Source: an uncultured Rhodobacter sp. (lineage in GTDB: Bacteria > Pseudomonadota > Alphaproteobacteria > Rhodobacterales > Rhodobacteraceae). Taken from it: DNA of 6,644 nt. The notes under the pieces were generated by a model that did not search any database, was not told the DNA's origin, and was given only the letters and a program-made list of their open reading frames with translations. The stretch is from assembly GCA_937901435.1 (NCBI GenBank), contig CALGTJ010000556.1, forward strand, positions 1-6,644. The letters run 5' to 3'. A program made the translations under genes and the position numbers. This document shows, in pieces, positions 1 through 6,644 of this stretch. Positions within the stretch are counted from its first letter, which is position 1. Each line of letters opens with the position of its first letter.

Positions 1-51
1 GCAACTTCAAAACGCCGCCTGATCACGCCGTCACCAACTTTCGGGCATAGC

Positions 52-981
52 TCAAAAGTAATCGTTCAGCGGCTTATCGCTATAAAGACCGGCGACCTCG
101 TCTTGATAGCCGTTCAGCATCAGGGTCGGAATTCGCTTGGCAAACAAGCCGCCGCCGATCTGGCGCTCTGTCGCCTGAGACCAGCGTGGGTGATCCACCT
201 CGGGGTTTACGTTGCTGTAGAACCCGTATTCGCTGCCGATGGCCATGTTCCAGCTTGTTGGCGGCTCTTTATCCGTCAGCGTGATCCGCACAATGGATTT
301 GATCGACTTATACCCATATTTCCACGGCACCACCAGGCGCAGCGGCGCACCGTTCTGGTTCGGGATCGGTTCATCGTAGATGCCGTTCGCGAGGATCGTC
401 AGCGGATGCATCGCCTCGTCCAGACGCAGCCCCTCGCGGTAGGGCCAATCCAGCGTGGCGCGACGTTGACCGGGCATTTCCTCTGGGCGGACCAGCGTTT
501 CAAATGCCACATATTTTGCAGAGCTCTGCACGCCGACGCGGTTCAAAAGGTCCGCCAGTTCGAACCCGACCCAAGGCACGACCATCGACCACGCCTCGAC
601 ACAGCGGAACCGATAGATGCGTTCCTCTAGCGTCACGCCTTGCAGGATGTCGTCCATGGAATAGTCGCCGGGCTTGTCCACCAGACCGTCGATCTTCACT
701 GTCCACGGGTCGGTGGTCAGCATATGCGCGTTTCGCGACGGGTCATCCTTGCCCGTGCCGAATTCATAGAAGTTGTTGTAGGATGTGATATCCTCAAGGC
801 TGTTGGCCTCGGCATCCGTCGAATACTCGCTGGGCACCGCGCCCAACTTGGCCAGCGCCGGGCCTGCAATCGCACCAAATCCCAGCGCCGAGGCCCCTGC
901 AATCAACTGGCGGCGGTTCATGAACCCCGCCTTTGGGGTCACATCGGACCAATTCAGATCATTCTTCCAACGTCCAGCCAT
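52..981 (-). CDS. msrP: MsrP, periplasmic protein-methionine-sulfoxide reductase, Mo-cofactor catalytic subunit
   Basis: The 309-residue product matches the MsrP (YedY) family of the sulfite oxidase fold. MsrP reduces methionine sulfoxide in oxidised periplasmic proteins and receives electrons from the haem membrane protein MsrQ. A twin-arginine signal is visible: N22-R23-R24-Q25-L26-I27, then an Ala/Gly-rich hydrophobic stretch and a likely cleavage site after P41-A-L-A44. The Mo-binding cysteine is C127 in RFRCVEAWSMVVPW. Other family segments are the NGAPLRLVVPWKYGYKSIKS block (210-229) and NPEVDHPRW near the C-terminus. A purine-rich AGAAGGGA precedes the ATG at 981, supporting this start and a cytoplasmic N-terminal extension of about 20 residues before the RR motif. 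Length is close to the E. coli protein (334 aa as I recall it). msrQ would be expected downstream, but the window ends 51 bases after the stop. The gene lies downstream of the glutamate-synthase-like gene on the same strand, 69 bases away, so co-transcription is possible. Confidence 0.96.
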   Translation of the reverse strand: MAGRWKNDLNWSDVTPKAGFMNRRQLIAGASALGFGAIAGPALAKLGAVPSEYSTDAEANSLEDITSYNNFYEFGTGKDDPSRNAHMLTTDPWTVKIDGLVDKPGDYSMDDILQGVTLEERIYRFRCVEAWSMVVPWVGFELADLLNRVGVQSSAKYVAFETLVRPEEMPGQRRATLDWPYREGLRLDEAMHPLTILANGIYDEPIPNQNGAPLRLVVPWKYGYKSIKSIVRITLTDKEPPTSWNMAIGSEYGFYSNVNPEVDHPRWSQATERQIGGGLFAKRIPTLMLNGYQDEVAGLYSDKPLNDYF

Positions 982-1030
982 AGTCGCGTCCCTTCTTCAT
1001 GCTTTTCCCCGATGTAGACGCAAAGTCGGA

Positions 1031-1064
1031 AAACACCAAACAACGGTTTTTCACGTTCCCGTTG
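1031..1064 (-). terminator. Weak terminator-like hairpin between the glutamate-synthase-like gene and msrP
   Basis: Read on the minus strand, CAACGG (1064-1059) and CCGTTG (1046-1041) form a perfect 6-bp stem with a 12-base loop. A T-rich tail (TTTGGTGTTT, 1040-1031) follows. The hairpin overlaps the last codons and stop of the upstream gene. The stem is short and the tail is interrupted by G residues, so it may only attenuate transcription into msrP, or it may be chance. Confidence 0.3.
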
Positions 1065-2553
1065 GGGTTTTGAAACGTGGATAGATCTCTTCCATTGAGA
1101 TCGAGCGCCCATTGTCTTGCATCAGCCGCACGTGATGCCGCCGCATCTGGCGCGGTTCCGTGACCCCGACAGAGTGGGCGATCGTTTCGACCTCTTTCAC
1201 CAGACCCTTGGCATAGGACGCGACCTTTTTATACTTTTCCTGCGGAACCAGCCCGCGCTGGAACCTTGGGTCATGGGTGGTGATCCCGGTCGGGCAGGTG
1301 TTCTTGTTGCACTTCAGCGCCTGAATACAGCCAAGGCTGAACATAAAACCGCGCGCCGAGGTGATAAAATCCGCCCCCGCACAAATCGCCCATGCCACAT
1401 CGCCCGGATTGACCAGCTTGCCACTGGCAATCAGGCGGATGCGCTCTCCCAATCCATATTCGCGCCGCAGGTCTGTCACCAAGGGCAAAGCCTCGCGGAT
1501 CGACATGCCCACCAGATCAATCAGCGGCATCGGCGCCGCCCCCGTCCCCCCTTCCCCACCATCAATCGTAATGAAATCCGGCGCGTGTTCTGCACCGCGG
1601 TCACGGATCAACTCGAACAAGGGGCGAAGATCGTCAGGATTGCCCACAACAGTCTTGAACCCCACAGGCTTGCCAGTCACGTCCCGCACATGTCCGGTCA
1701 GGTCCAGCAAATCACCAAAGTCATCCACTTCTGTATGGCGATTGGGAGAGATGCTGGCCTCGCCCTCGTGAATCCCCCGGATCGCCGCGATCTCTGCATT
1801 CACCTTTTCCGCGGGCAGAATACCGCCCTTGCCCGGCTTGGCCCCCTGCGCCAGCTTGATCTCGAACATGCGGACTTGCTGATGCGAGGCCACCTCTCGC
1901 AGTTTGTCATCGCTCAGGTTGCCCGCCGTGTCGCGCACACCATATTTCGCGGTGCCGATCTGAAACACGATATCGGCCCCGCCACTATAATGATAAGGTG
2001 AAACGCCTCCCTCTCCGGTGTTCATCCAGATCCCGGCCTCTTTCGCGCCACGGCTTAGCGCCTCGACCGCAGGACGGGACAATGCGCCGTAACTCATCCC
2101 CGAGATATTAAAGAAGGACTGTGCAAGATAGGGCGTGCGGGCGTGCAGCCCGATCAGCATCGGTTCTGTATGCGCGACCTGATCCTCTAGTGGGGGAAAG
2201 GCCGCGTTCACGAAAATCGGCGTGCCCGGAATGCTGGTGTTGCGGGTCGACCCAAAGGCCACCGTATTGCCCTGCCCGGATCCCGCGCGTTCCACCCATT
2301 CCCGTTGCGCGCGGTTGAAGGGCAGTTCCTCGCGGTCCATCGCAAAGAAGTACTGGCGAAAAAATTCACCCATCGTCGAAAACAAATGCCGGAACCGACC
2401 GACCATCGGATAGTTCCGTCGCACCGCATCACTGGTCTGAATGCGGTCGATGACAAAGAACACCAGCGCGATCAGCGCCACCGCCCCGACCACAAGCACA
2501 AAGCTTAGCGCCAAAAGCTCTAACGCGCGCCGGGTGATTTCCATATACATCAT
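1051..2553 (-). CDS. Membrane-anchored FMN-binding glutamate-synthase-family protein (orphan GltB-like domain)
   Basis: The 500-residue product carries the FMN / iron-sulfur synthase domain of glutamate synthase (Glu_synthase, GltB central part). It lacks the N-terminal class II glutaminase domain and the C-terminal GXGXG domain. Residues about 10-36 form one transmembrane segment (LELLALSFVLVVGAVALIAL and onward). The catalytic-domain motifs run in order: FFNISGMSYGALS (147-159), GEGGVSPYH (180-188), FEIKLAQGAKPGKGG (230-244), GKPVGFK (294-300), TIDGGEGGTGAAP (329-341), and RLIASGKLVNPGD (373-385). C409, C415 and C420 have the C-x5-C-x4-C spacing of the [3Fe-4S] site of GltS. A strong GGGAGG seven bases before the ATG at 2553 selects this start over the Met codons at residues 2 and 4. 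No partner glutaminase or GltD-like gene is present. The true reaction of these short membrane-tethered homologues is not established, so I would not call it a glutamate synthase. It lies upstream of msrP on the same strand. Confidence 0.92.
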   Translation of the reverse strand: MMYMEITRRALELLALSFVLVVGAVALIALVFFVIDRIQTSDAVRRNYPMVGRFRHLFSTMGEFFRQYFFAMDREELPFNRAQREWVERAGSGQGNTVAFGSTRNTSIPGTPIFVNAAFPPLEDQVAHTEPMLIGLHARTPYLAQSFFNISGMSYGALSRPAVEALSRGAKEAGIWMNTGEGGVSPYHYSGGADIVFQIGTAKYGVRDTAGNLSDDKLREVASHQQVRMFEIKLAQGAKPGKGGILPAEKVNAEIAAIRGIHEGEASISPNRHTEVDDFGDLLDLTGHVRDVTGKPVGFKTVVGNPDDLRPLFELIRDRGAEHAPDFITIDGGEGGTGAAPMPLIDLVGMSIREALPLVTDLRREYGLGERIRLIASGKLVNPGDVAWAICAGADFITSARGFMFSLGCIQALKCNKNTCPTGITTHDPRFQRGLVPQEKYKKVASYAKGLVKEVETIAHSVGVTEPRQMRRHHVRLMQDNGRSISMEEIYPRFKTPTGT

Positions 2554-2877
2554 GACTTGGCCTCCCTGCGGGCTGCCAAACTGCTGCGTCAGGCCCGCTT
2601 ACAGAGTTACTGTCATCCGGATCGCACGATACCGCAAGCATTCGAAGCCGCACAAAGACGCCTCATATCCCCGGAAATCAGTTTTTTTCAATCACGCCAT
2701 TTCAAACGAATGTGACTTGTCTAAATTGCACGCCCCGGCTCAGTCCGCGTTGCGATTTCGTCAACGTGACCAGAGCGCCGATTGGCGGGAAATCCCACAG
2801 ATCCAATTCCGCACAAGGGCCGTAAGACCTTTCGATGTCACAACGGACATTCACTTTAACACATGATGGAGACCCTA
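2554..2877. other. Divergent intergenic region of 324 bases
   Basis: This gap separates the minus-strand glutamate-synthase-like gene from the plus-strand fasciclin gene, so it must hold both promoters unless the genes are read from further away. I see the ribosome binding site of the minus-strand gene at its left end, one weak minus-strand promoter candidate, a run of seven T residues at 2682-2688, and GGAGA at the right end. I see no convincing plus-strand promoter, operator, RNA gene or plausible small protein. Open frames crossing it have no ribosome binding site and no recognisable family features. Confidence 0.5.
2662..2691 (-). promoter_or_regulatory. Candidate sigma70-type promoter for the glutamate-synthase-like gene
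   Basis: On the minus strand, TTGAAA (2691-2686; 5 of 6 to TTGACA) is followed after 18 bases by TATGAG (2667-2662; 4 of 6 to TATAAT). This would give a leader of about 100 bases before the ATG at 2553. It is a visual match only, and alphaproteobacterial promoters are often degenerate. Confidence 0.27.
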
Positions 2878-3354
2878 ATGTTTCGTAGAACAATGATCTC
2901 GCTGACCGCCGCCGCTTTCCTGACCGCACCCGCATTCGCTGGTGGCCATTCCAAGGACATCGTCGACACAGCCGTCGGTGCAGGCACCTTTAACACTCTG
3001 GTCGCCGCCGTCACCGCAGCCGGTCTGGTCGATACGCTGAAAGGCGAAGGCCCCTTCACCGTATTCGCGCCAACAGATGACGCATTCGCAAAACTGCCAG
3101 AAGGCACCGTAGAAGGCCTGCTGGCCGATATTCCAACCCTGACGAAAATCCTGACCTATCACGTGGTCGCCGGTAAAGTAATGTCGACCGACCTAAGTGA
3201 CGGCATGATGGCCGCCACTGTGGAAGGATCCGAGATCAAAGTCGGCACCATGGGTGGCGTGATGATCAACGAGTCGACCGTCACAACGGCCGATATCGAA
3301 GCCTCGAACGGTGTGATCCATGTGATCGACACGGTTCTGATGCCCCCGATGTAA
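2878..3354 (+). CDS. Exported fasciclin (FAS1) domain protein
   Basis: The 158-residue product is a signal peptide plus one FAS1 domain. The signal peptide has positive residues R3-R4, a hydrophobic core from about M6 to F14, and a likely cleavage after A19-F-A21. The domain runs from about D27 to P157 with the family hallmarks. These are the H1-like segment [17 protein letters not shown] (58-74), YHVVAGKV (94-101), and the H2-like C-terminal [14 protein letters not shown] (144-157). Bacterial FAS1 proteins of this size are secreted or periplasmic and are linked to adhesion, but their ligands are mostly unknown. The start at 2878 is chosen because GGAGA (2868-2872) lies five bases upstream. 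An in-frame ATG at 2863 would add only MMETL and would place the purine-rich site inside the gene. A strong hairpin terminator follows the stop, so it is probably a single-gene transcript. Confidence 0.93.
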
Positions 3355-3360
3355 TCTATC

Positions 3361-3417
3361 GCGCCAACCTTGGCGTACTGCATCAAACAAAAGGGCGGGC
3401 CATTGGTCCGCCCTTTT
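3361..3417 (+). terminator. Strong intrinsic terminator after the fasciclin gene
   Basis: The main hairpin pairs AAAAGGGCGG (3389-3398) with CCGCCCTTTT (3408-3417). It continues inward through one G-U and two G-C pairs to a 3-base loop, giving about 13 bp in all. The T run makes it a standard terminator on the plus strand, and the A run makes it potentially bidirectional. Just before it, a small perfect hairpin CGCCAA / TTGGCG (3362-3367 / 3370-3375) lies 7 bases after the stop codon. Confidence 0.88.
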
Positions 3418-3575
3418 GCGTTCTTGCTGTGATCAGCGCGCATTTGCCCATACGCCCCACGCCCTGTGGGGGAAGATTGCCTGTCCCGATGCCGCAGTAT
3501 TTTCCATGCGGAACATTGCTTGTCTCACCCTGCCTTTCACGCGCCCTTGTGCCCAAAACCTTAGATGTTGAGCCA

Positions 3576-3642
3576 GAGGGATGCGCGGTCGTCAAACATC
3601 TGGCCTAGTCGCCTTGCATCACCCTTTCGCGATGCATCCCTC
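3576..3642 (+). promoter_or_regulatory. Perfect 9-bp inverted repeat upstream of the EF-hand gene's ribosome binding site
   Basis: GAGGGATGC (3576-3584) and GCATCCCTC (3634-3642) are perfect inverted copies with a 49-base spacer. The right arm ends 4 bases before the AAAGGA ribosome binding site. Inside and overlapping it, a second inverted repeat AGATGTT (3563-3569) / AACATCT (3595-3601) could fold in competition. If transcribed, this would be a leader structure able to influence ribosome access. If not, it could be a binding site. No known riboswitch class is recognised. Confidence 0.35.
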
Positions 3643-3660
3643 AACCAAAGGACGCGACAA

Positions 3661-3900
3661 ATGACCCGCAAACTCATCTCCGCTGCCATGATCCTTGGAA
3701 CGGCCGCTGCCGCCTTCGCCATGACCAACCTCGACAGCGATGGCGACGCCATGCTCACGATGGAAGAAATGACAGCCGCCTATCCGACCTTTACAGAAGC
3801 GCAGTTCAGCGATGCCGATACGGATGGTGACGGTATGATCAACCAAGACGAACTCGCCGCCGCCCGCGCCATCGGCATCATCCCCGCCGATCAGGGCTAA
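3661..3900 (+). CDS. Small exported EF-hand (calmodulin-like) Ca2+-binding protein
   Basis: The product is 79 residues long: a signal peptide (M1 to about A20, core LISAAMILGTAAAAFA) followed by two EF-hand loops. Loop 1 is residues 25-36 (D25, D27, D29, E36), with Ala at position 6 where Gly is usual. Loop 2 is residues 53-64 (D53, D55, D57, G58, E64) and is canonical. The pair is separated by a short linker typical of a paired EF-hand unit. The expected role is Ca2+ binding in the periplasm or outside the cell, but the partner is unknown. AAAGGA (3647-3652) lies eight bases before the ATG at 3661, which supports the start. The gene has its own downstream terminator and sits between the fasciclin gene and clpB (convergent). 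There is no sign of an operon partner. Confidence 0.88.
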   Translation: MTRKLISAAMILGTAAAAFAMTNLDSDGDAMLTMEEMTAAYPTFTEAQFSDADTDGDGMINQDELAAARAIGIIPADQG

Positions 3901-4023
3901 GCCATAGCGTTGAGGTTGTCCCCGGGTTGCCAGTGGCGGCAGGCGCACACCCTCTCCCCCAAAGACCAGAGGGAGACATCCACCCCAGGTTCCGCCTGCA
4001 CCAACGCCATAGCCTCAACGTTA
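3901..4023 (+). ncRNA. Candidate structured RNA or structured 3' UTR (unclassified)
   Basis: Nested inverted repeats fill the space between the EF-hand stop codon and a terminator. Stem P1 pairs 3905-3915 (TAGCGTTGAGG) with 4013-4023 (CCTCAACGTTA): 11 bp with one G-U. Stem P2/P3 pairs 3934-3945 (TGGCGGCAGGCG) with CGCCTGC (3993-3999) and CGCCA (4005-4009): 12 bp with a 5-base bulge at 4000-4004. An apical hairpin pairs CCCTCT (3950-3955) with AGAGGG (3968-3973), or alternatively TCTCCC with GGGAGA in a shifted register. An asymmetric internal loop (3916-3933 against 4010-4012) separates P1 from P2. I could not match it to SRP RNA, 6S RNA, RNase P, tmRNA or a cobalamin riboswitch. Because P1 starts 4 bases after the stop codon, it may be processed from, or simply belong to, the EF-hand mRNA. 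Confidence 0.45.
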
Positions 4024-4060
4024 GACCCCCGCCCAGAGTTCCGGGCGGGGGTCATTTATT
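4024..4060 (+). terminator. Intrinsic terminator after the EF-hand gene / structured RNA
   Basis: GACCCCCGCCC (4024-4034) and GGGCGGGGGTC (4043-4053) form a perfect 11-bp GC-rich stem with an 8-base loop. ATTTATT follows (4054-4060). The tail is T-rich only on the plus strand, so it ends plus-strand transcription and abuts the candidate RNA's outer stem directly. Confidence 0.87.
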
Positions 4061-4081
4061 ATGCGTTGCCCATCAATTGGC

Positions 4082-4103
4082 GAAAATAGGCGCGCGGTCG
4101 CGC
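4082..4103 (-). terminator. Possible terminator downstream of clpB
   Basis: The short palindrome GCGCGGTCGCGC (4092-4103) lies about 33 bases after the clpB stop. On the minus strand it is followed by CCTATTTTCG, giving a 4-5-bp GC stem and a partial T tract. The plus-strand side also has TCCTTTT, so it could act in both directions. The stem is short, so this is tentative. Confidence 0.35.
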
Positions 4104-4135
4104 TCCTTTTGGTCACGCCTTGCCAGAGATACGCC

Positions 4136-6385
4136 TTAGTGGATCACTGCGTCCTGTGGCGGTTGGCGGTTTGATGACGTTACCCGCTCGCCCACGATCA
4201 GCCCGTCAACGCCGCCGCTGACGTGAACAATATCACCGTCCTTCACATCGCCAGACAGCAACATCTCAGCCAGTTGATCCTGCAAATGCCGCTGGATCAC
4301 CCGCTTGAGGGGGCGCGCGCCAAACACAGGGTCAAAGCCTTCATCCGCCAGCCACTTTAGTGCGCCCTCATCCATGTCCAGCTTGATCTTGCGCCGGGCC
4401 AGTCTCTTTTCCAGCAACCCAAGCTGGATGGTGACGATATCGGTCATATCTTCGCGGCTGAGCCGGTCAAAGATGATCGTCTCGTCCAGACGGTTCAGGA
4501 ACTCGGGACGAAAATGCGCCCGCACCGCGTCCATGACATCACGTCGCGCCGTGGCACCATCGGCACCCTCGGGCAGTTGGCTGAGCGCCTGAGATCCAAG
4601 GTTCGACGTCAGAATGATCATCGTCTGCTTGAAACTGACCGTATGCCCCTGACCATCGGTCAGGATCCCGTCGTCCAGCACCTGCAACAGCACATTGAAC
4701 ACATCCGGATGCGCCTTTTCGACCTCGTCAAACAGGATCACCTGATAAGGCCTGCGCCGCACGGCCTCTGTCAGAACGCCACCCTCATCATAGCCCACAT
4801 AGCCCGGAGGCGCACCGATCAGGCGGGCGACCGAATGTTTCTCCATGAATTCAGACATATCGATGCGCACCATCGCCTTGTCGTCATCAAACAGGTATTC
4901 GGCCACCGCCTTGGTCAGTTCGGTCTTGCCGACACCCGTTGGCCCGAGGAACAGGAACGAGCCCAAAGGCCGGTTCTCGTCGTTCAGACCCGCGCGCGCG
5001 CGGCGCACGGCATTGGCCACAGCCTTGACGGCCGCATCCTGACCGATCACGCGCTTTCCAAGCTCGGCTTCCATCTGCAACAACTTGTCCCGCTCGCCTT
5101 CCAGCATCTTGGACGTGGGAATCCCCGTCCAGCGCTCGACCACCTGCGCGATCTGTTCCGGACGCACAGCTTCTTCGACCATCATGTCGCTTTCGCTGTC
5201 CTCGGCCTGCGCTACCTGTTTTTCAAGCTGGGGGATCACGCCATAGGACAACTCCCCCGCACGACCCAGATCGCCTTCGCGCTTGGCATGTTCCAACTCG
5301 GCACGGGCGCGGTCCAACTGCTCTTTCAGATCGCGCGCAGATTCCAGTTTGTTGCGCTCTGCCTGCCATTGCGCCGTCATTTCGGACGACCGCTGCTGCA
5401 AGTCCGCCAATTCTTTTTCCAGCTTTTCAAGCCGGTCCACACTGGCCGCGTCATCCTCTTTCTTCAGCGCCTCACCCTCGATCTGCAGTTGCAGGATCTG
5501 ACGATCCAGCGCGTCCAGTTCTTCGGGTTTGCTGTCCACTTCCATGCGCAGGCGGCTGGCGGCCTCGTCCATCAGGTCGATGGCCTTATCGGGCAGAAAA
5601 CGGTCGGTGATATAGCGATGGCTAAGTGTTGCCGCCGCGACCAGGGCAGAATCGCTGATCCGCACACCATGGTGCAGTTCATACTTTTCCTTGATACCGC
5701 GCAGGATGCTGATCGTGTCCTCGACCGTCGGTTCCTGCACAAGGACAGGTTGGAACCGCCGCGCAAGGGCTGCGTCTTTTTCCACGTATTTGCGGTATTC
5801 ATCCAGCGTCGTAGCCCCGACACAGTGCAATTCACCGCGCGCCAGAGACGGTTTGATCAGGTTCGCGGCATCCATTGCCCCATCGCCCTTGCCCGCGCCG
5901 ACAAGCGTGTGCATTTCGTCGATAAACAGGATGATTTCACCAGCGGCGGCAGTGATTTCATTCAGAACCGCCTTTAAACGTTCCTCGAACTCACCACGGT
6001 ATTTTGCCCCGGCAATCAGCGCACCCATATCCAGCGCCATCAGTTTCTTGTTGCGCAGGGATTCCGGCACGTCCCCGTTGACGATGCGCAGCGCAAGACC
6101 CTCGGCAATTGCGGTTTTACCCACACCGGGGTCCCCGATCAGAACCGGGTTGTTCTTGGTGCGGCGCGACAGGACCTGCATCGTGCGACGGATCTCCTCG
6201 TCGCGGCCAATGATCGGATCGATCTTGCCCTGCTCTGCGGCCTCAGTCAGGTCGCGCGCATACTTCTTGAGTGCGTCATAGCCCTCTTCGGCACTGGCAC
6301 TGTCCGCCGTGCGCCCCTTGCGCACATCGTTGATCGCAGAATTTAGCGACATGGCCGTCACGCCCCCAGCATCCAATGCCTCTTG
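4136..6385 (-). CDS. clpB: ClpB disaggregase, 5'-truncated at a chimeric join
   Basis: ClpB is the hexameric AAA+ disaggregase that works with DnaK/DnaJ/GrpE to extract proteins from aggregates in the cytosol. Numbering here follows the open frame read from a TTG at 6403. NBD1 has Walker A GDPGVGKT (90-97), pore loop KYRG (134-137), Walker B IILFIDE (157-163) and the Arg pair R215-R216. A Glu/Lys/Gln-rich coiled-coil middle domain spans about 285-410. NBD2 has Walker A GPTGVGKT (487-494), pore loop GYVGY (534-538), Walker B VILFDE (555-560), sensor-1 LTSNLGS (598-604) and sensor-2 GARPLKR (695-701). The C-terminus is complete (TAA at 4136-4138). Homology begins at QEALDAGG, so most of the N-terminal substrate-binding domain, roughly 120 residues, is missing. 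The frame stays open into foreign DNA (ATG 6394, TTG 6403), but those first six residues are not ClpB and these are not native starts. No promoter is visible. A minor short ClpB isoform made from an internal start is known in E. coli, but this break is not that. Confidence 0.95.
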
Positions 6386-6395
6386 GCAGGTCATG
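6381..6395. other. Chimeric join between alphaproteobacterial and Bacteroidetes-like DNA
   Basis: ClpB homology (minus strand) persists up to the CAA codon at 6383-6385. IorB-family homology (plus strand) begins at the TGG codon at 6384-6386, possibly at the preceding TCT. The two sides overlap by only about 3-6 bases (TCTTGG), and composition drops from about 62% to 38% GC at the same point. Two unrelated genes are broken in mid-reading frame in opposite orientation with no inverted repeats, target duplication or integrase. That pattern points to an artefactual join at a microhomology rather than an insertion. Confidence 0.85.
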
Positions 6396-6644
6396 AAAGC
6401 CAAAAAAGCACTAATAGTAGAATGGGAATGGGATTCTCCTGCTGAAAATAGTCAAGACCACGAATTCAAACTTGAACAATCTCTCCAATCTGGAGTTAAA
6501 GAATTGGCACGAAAAGACGGAAATCCCGAACAAACTTTCAAAAATGCATCTCAAGTTATCGAAAAGATCTTTAGCGCACCTTTTCTTGCCCATAATACCA
6601 TGGAGCCTATGAATTTCTTTGCTGAGGTAAGCAAAGAAAAAGCT
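6384..6644 (+). CDS. Internal fragment of an IorB / xanthine-dehydrogenase-family molybdopterin-binding subunit, Bacteroidetes-like
   Basis: The plus-strand frame is open from the join to the window end with no start or stop, so it is partial at both ends (about 87 codons). It reads [18 protein letters not shown] near the join and [18 protein letters not shown] further on. Both match the large molybdenum-hydroxylase subunit of the isoquinoline 1-oxidoreductase beta (IorB) / aldehyde oxidase type. The PFLAHxTMEPMN segment marks the start of the molybdopterin-binding region after the hammerhead-like domain. Such subunits oxidise aldehydes or N-heterocycles together with a small 2Fe-2S subunit. 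The 38% GC, AT-rich codons and sequence style resemble flavobacterial homologues as I remember them, unlike everything to the left. The source assignment is inference; the family assignment is firm. Confidence 0.82.

Follow-up and report, generated by a model that had tools for sequence, protein, structure and literature searches.

A clpB gene cut short by Cyclobacteriaceae sequence at the end of a Rhodobacteraceae metagenome contig: a very probable artefact

Gene content of the window

The window analysed here is the 6,644-nucleotide stretch of contig CALGTJ010000556.1, positions 1-6,644 of the forward strand, assigned to an uncultured Rhodobacter sp. By gene content (Pfam and NCBIfam), positions 52-6382 look like one ordinary segment of Rhodobacteraceae type, whereas the last few hundred bases encode, on the plus strand, part of an enzyme subunit from another phylum (Table 1). 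Within the left segment, MsrP was assigned via NF003767 and the GltB-like FMN protein via PF01645. Left of the join, the gene order appears to be native. Relatives of ClpB and of the GltB-like protein share the same longest listed contig size in at least six cases (48905, 35154, 74240, 3995303, 34153 and 4675434 bases), and these equal sizes indicate that both genes probably lie on one contig there. A small EF-hand protein is encoded downstream of the fasciclin-domain gene (3565-3900); its similarity to the lanmodulin and XopAW models is weak and far below their cut-offs.

Table 1. Features of the window, with coordinates, strand and supporting evidence.
Feature	Coordinates	Strand	Evidence
msrP, GltB-like FMN protein, fasciclin-domain protein, EF-hand protein	52..3900		Pfam, NCBIfam; read as native
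clpB, Rhodobacteraceae type, truncated	4136..6382	-	TIGR03346, 1268.7 bits, model positions 118-845 of 853; 97% identity to P0004
Join	6382..6384	.	6382 fits both genes; 6383-6384 also fit if the ClpB Lys codon was AAA; to 6386 if Gln
Internal fragment of a Cyclobacteriaceae molybdenum-hydroxylase large-subunit (IorB-like) gene	6382..6644	+	263/263 nt to L187:4477-4739; runs off the window end
Spurious start of the short ClpB ORF (MAFMTCQ)	6383..6403	-	Antisense of the foreign gene

A ClpB without its N-terminal domain

The minus-strand ORF that carries clpB (4136-6403, 752-aa product) encodes a ClpB of Rhodobacteraceae type, whose TIGR03346 score exceeds the curated cut-off of 1232.1 bits. 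The AAA domains, the AAA lid and the C-terminal D2-small domain shared by this family are all present (Pfam), and comparison with solved structures agrees with the family assignment. Unlike its full-length relatives, P0004 included, in which the PF02861 N domain is annotated, the window copy has no N-terminal domain: Clp_N (PF02861) is absent from the 22 Pfam families matched by the ORF, and the counterpart of residues 1-123 of the 871-residue P0004 is missing together with the domain it contains. The initial annotation had placed this loss at about position 6385, in agreement with a TIGR03346 match that begins only at model position 118 and with a ClpB similarity that stops at codon 6382-6380, corresponding to P0004 residue 124 of 871. 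The absence of the domain results from the switch of the contig to another genome at this point, as detailed below.

The boundary is sharp at the residue level. Against P0004, 112 of 113 positions are identical over ORF residues 8-120, and none of the seven over residues 1-7. The comparison was extended to the best 120 of 7998 scored ClpB proteins; one of these, P0003, is the window's own 752-aa product, letter for letter, and the other 119 are full length (869-894 aa). ORF residue 8, the Glu encoded by codon 6382-6380, is natural for the family (Glu in 47/119 relatives, Asp in 72/119). The next codon outward specifies Gln in the window, a position at which the relatives carry Lys (112/119), Arg (4/119) or Gln (3/119). 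Taken together, the seven extra residues agree with the relatives only at residue 1 (Leu, 29/119) and residue 7 (the same Gln). Furthermore, MAFMTCQ also opens an antisense ORF inside the intact foreign gene (L187:4127-4498, minus strand). The warning, made when the sequence was first read, that a false short ClpB could be annotated here has already been borne out, as P0003, which begins MTCQ, is an entry of the protein database.

An internal fragment of a Cyclobacteriaceae molybdenum-hydroxylase gene

Positions 6382-6644 are identical at 263/263 nucleotides to L001, a contig of the uncultured Cyclobacteriaceae MAG G001. A genome scan, queried with the 86-residue translation and retaining the best 80 of 422 loci, recovered this locus at 100% identity. 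The identity ends abruptly at 6382, to the left of which the match falls to 20 of 60 bases. The next relatives among the loci listed, compared over these 263 bases, are L003 (95.8%), L002 (94.7%), L004 (93.2%) and L005 (87.5%). The match thus substantiates the earlier proposal that the right part comes from a Bacteroidetes-like genome, set against a left part of Rhodobacteraceae type.

In G001, the one genome in which its intactness was checked, the donor gene is a complete 732-aa ORF (L187:3615-5813) and adjoins the gene for a [2Fe-2S] subunit. The fragment starts at codon 288 of this 732-codon gene, and the window holds only about 88 of the 732 codons. The intact donor protein contains MoCoBD_1 (98.7 bits) and MoCoBD_2 (114.8 bits), both over cut-off, and the solved chain closest to it in sequence is the aldehyde dehydrogenase large subunit 8gy3_C; the protein reaches no NCBIfam cut-off. 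In the window ORF that holds the fragment (6309-6644, 112 aa), MoCoBD_1 reaches a sub-threshold 19.7 bits against the 27-bit cut-off, and neither an NCBIfam nor a PDB match was obtained. Because this 112-aa ORF is too short to be named alone, the identity of the fragment rests on its full-length relative, which has both domains of a molybdenum-hydroxylase large subunit and the adjoining [2Fe-2S] subunit gene, whereas the window has a short piece. The opposite strand had initially been read, from 6384, as an internal piece of an IorB-family subunit. The internal piece of a molybdenum-hydroxylase large subunit stands, now from 6382, but IorB lacks confirmation as the exact family, given that no NCBIfam cut-off is passed; we take 'IorB-like' to be a fair loose label for the donor gene rather than a tested membership.

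G001 also encodes ClpB-like proteins, on contigs other than that of the donor gene (C21 and C14). C21 contains an 875-aa ClpB-like frame that scores 1220.9 bits, slightly under the ClpB cut-off of 1232.1, and C14 contains a second Clp ATPase-like gene (98137-100608) with an 862-aa open frame.

The window could also be read as a native arrangement, in which a functional ClpB, shortened at its N terminus and provided with a start of its own, lies beside a divergent gene. ClpB without the N domain is made naturally in E. coli from an internal start, and such a product could therefore be tolerated. Against this reading, the seven extra residues are the antisense of a Bacteroidota gene and find almost no agreement among the 119 relatives (residues 1 and 7 only), and the fragment on the plus strand begins mid-gene. 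The nucleotide identity to L001 and the antisense origin of the N-terminal residues rule out this native order, to which we assign a negligible probability.

Composition and shared bases at the join

The two parts of the window differ strongly in composition. The G+C content is 58.7% over 1-6381 and 39.2% over 6382-6644, and the lowest value of any 263-bp stretch within 1-6381 is 48.7%. At the join, it drops to the level of the donor's surroundings (39.9% over 11 kb, L187). The sharp G+C drop initially counted by hand is reproduced exactly by positions 6304-6383 (50/80 G+C) and 6396-6644 (95/249).

On the clpB side, the two genes part at 6381 (donor A versus clpB T). On the other side, the string that they have in common is bounded by the lost clpB codon: it comprises one or three bases if this codon was Lys, one or two if Arg, and one, four or five if Gln. 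The three to six shared bases first reported at the join are corrected accordingly: within this codon-only bound, the bases common to both genes probably number one to three, and at most five.

These figures bear on a pure assembler or scaffolding error, in which two unrelated contigs would have been butted together with no read across the join. Assemblers are able to merge genomes at shared k-mers, but the usual k-mer and overlap lengths are far above five bases, and the join contains no run of N. We regard such an error as very unlikely. The few shared bases, together with the missing N run, imply instead that some molecule or read carried the join.

Search for the junction in other genomes

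Genomic comparison of the donor genus (10 genomes, G001 included) yielded eight that match the fragment, and in 8/8 the match stops at or near the join. In five of these genomes (87-100% identity) and a sixth (75%), the matches all start at query base 83, equivalent to window position 6382; in the other two (71%), they start at query bases 80 and 85. No match in the eight genomes extends more than 3 bases beyond the join toward clpB. When up to 3 mismatches are allowed, a pattern of 30 bases across the junction occurs in 0/196 genomes of the G001 family.

Viral and plasmid sources were likewise considered and rejected. Megablast of the whole window against phages returned no match, and the exact 33-base junction pattern was not found in viral contigs; the ClpB-like loci of viral contigs reach at most 68% identity (best 80 of 185) and are of no use for the join. 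For the clpB end, all 1569 matching plasmid records fall in the 60-80% identity band, and for the fragment, all 21 matching plasmid records are below 60%.

In the protein database, two contigs are given for the truncated 752-aa ClpB (P0003), and the longer measures 6,731 bases. The contig of the window could itself be one of these two, or the window could form part of the 6,731-base one. A search for partial proteins, aimed at how far this longer contig continues into the foreign gene, yielded one candidate and no scored match. For the GltB-like protein, too, a database row names one 6,731-base contig (source ena), and the representative of this row, P0123, differs from the GltB-like protein of the window only at S159Y (window 2077-2079). 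Since this row is a cluster of 8 member sequences, S159Y need not lie on the 6,731-base contig; the substitution may point to strain variation or to a second assembly. The repeated join would be explained by two assemblies of one library but not by two independent libraries, and independent libraries behind the P0003 contigs would make a one-off library chimera unlikely.

The listing of the truncated ClpB on two contigs also speaks for a real, very recent insertion or rearrangement, in which a Rhodobacteraceae cell would have taken up Cyclobacteriaceae DNA, clpB would have been broken with little or no homology, and the resulting clone would have become common enough to assemble. The 100% identity to the donor is compatible with a transfer too recent for divergence. 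Yet the arriving piece is the interior of an unrelated gene, antisense to clpB; no mobile-element gene was detected among the six window ORFs scanned (Pfam, NCBIfam); all 119 other relatives listed retain a full-length clpB; and the join lies only 263 bases from the window end. In addition, the donor's four closest relatives diverge from it by 4-13%, which points to that very population as the source, as expected of co-sequenced DNA. A real insertion is therefore improbable in our assessment. The corresponding biological claim, namely a genuine and very recent junction between phyla, with clpB interrupted by Cyclobacteriaceae DNA in a Rhodobacteraceae strain that is abundant and occurs in more than one sample, is given an equally small chance.

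A probable library chimera at the contig tip

The window end is very probably an artefact, in which Cyclobacteriaceae sequence was added to the tip of a metagenome contig of Rhodobacteraceae origin. The chimeric contig proposed at the outset is supported by the intact donor gene, by the full length of the 119 other ClpB proteins and by a switch that occurs in one place, with at most five shared bases, close to the window end. Confidence in the artefact is high and is kept from being higher because the truncated ClpB is listed on two contigs.

We infer that the window end is the contig end, and that the joining took place during library preparation rather than inside a cell. During library making, a clpB fragment of the Rhodobacteraceae genome would have been ligated end to end with a fragment from the interior of the molybdenum-hydroxylase gene, the second partner being a co-occurring marine bacterium of the Cyclobacteriaceae. 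The chimeric molecule would have been read at least twice, via overlapping mates or PCR copies. These reads would then have offered the assembler its sole path off the contig end, adding a few hundred bases before the extension stopped. An extension of roughly one insert would fit the 263 bases if the window end is indeed the contig end.

Comparable contig ends are described in an RNA-seq study, where chimeric reads bridged contigs and were singletons apart from PCR duplicates (PMC8376068). According to the same study, the foreign part of its virus assemblies usually lies at the contig extremities (PMC8376068). The present case likewise combines foreign sequence at an extremity with an abrupt switch between two sources. 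It differs from the cases of that study in that bacterial genomes supplied both partners, the data presumably derive from DNA, and the join is known here from the assembled sequence.

As biology, the join most likely means nothing; its interest is that of a data-quality case. Because of it, a large protein database already contains a falsely started 'ClpB' of 752 residues, and the contig could be mistaken for a case of transfer between phyla. Where a single truncated protein lies at the end of a contig, a check for chimerism is warranted.

Bacteroidota-like genes in MAGs with Rhodobacteraceae titles

Two contigs (L012 and L013) from MAGs that bear the Rhodobacteraceae names Thalassovita sp. 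and Thalassobius sp. in their titles carry Bacteroidota-like molybdenum-hydroxylase genes with 60-63% protein identity. When the window clpB was compared with the whole genomes of these MAGs, G002 (the 'Thalassovita' MAG) gave no match and G003 gave 64-67%. Across the order of G002, clpB matches of at least 300 bases reach 74% identity at most, and this order shares the genomes G022 and G038 with the family of G001. Because of the poor clpB match and these shared genomes, the Thalassovita and Thalassobius titles look wrong, or the MAGs look mixed.
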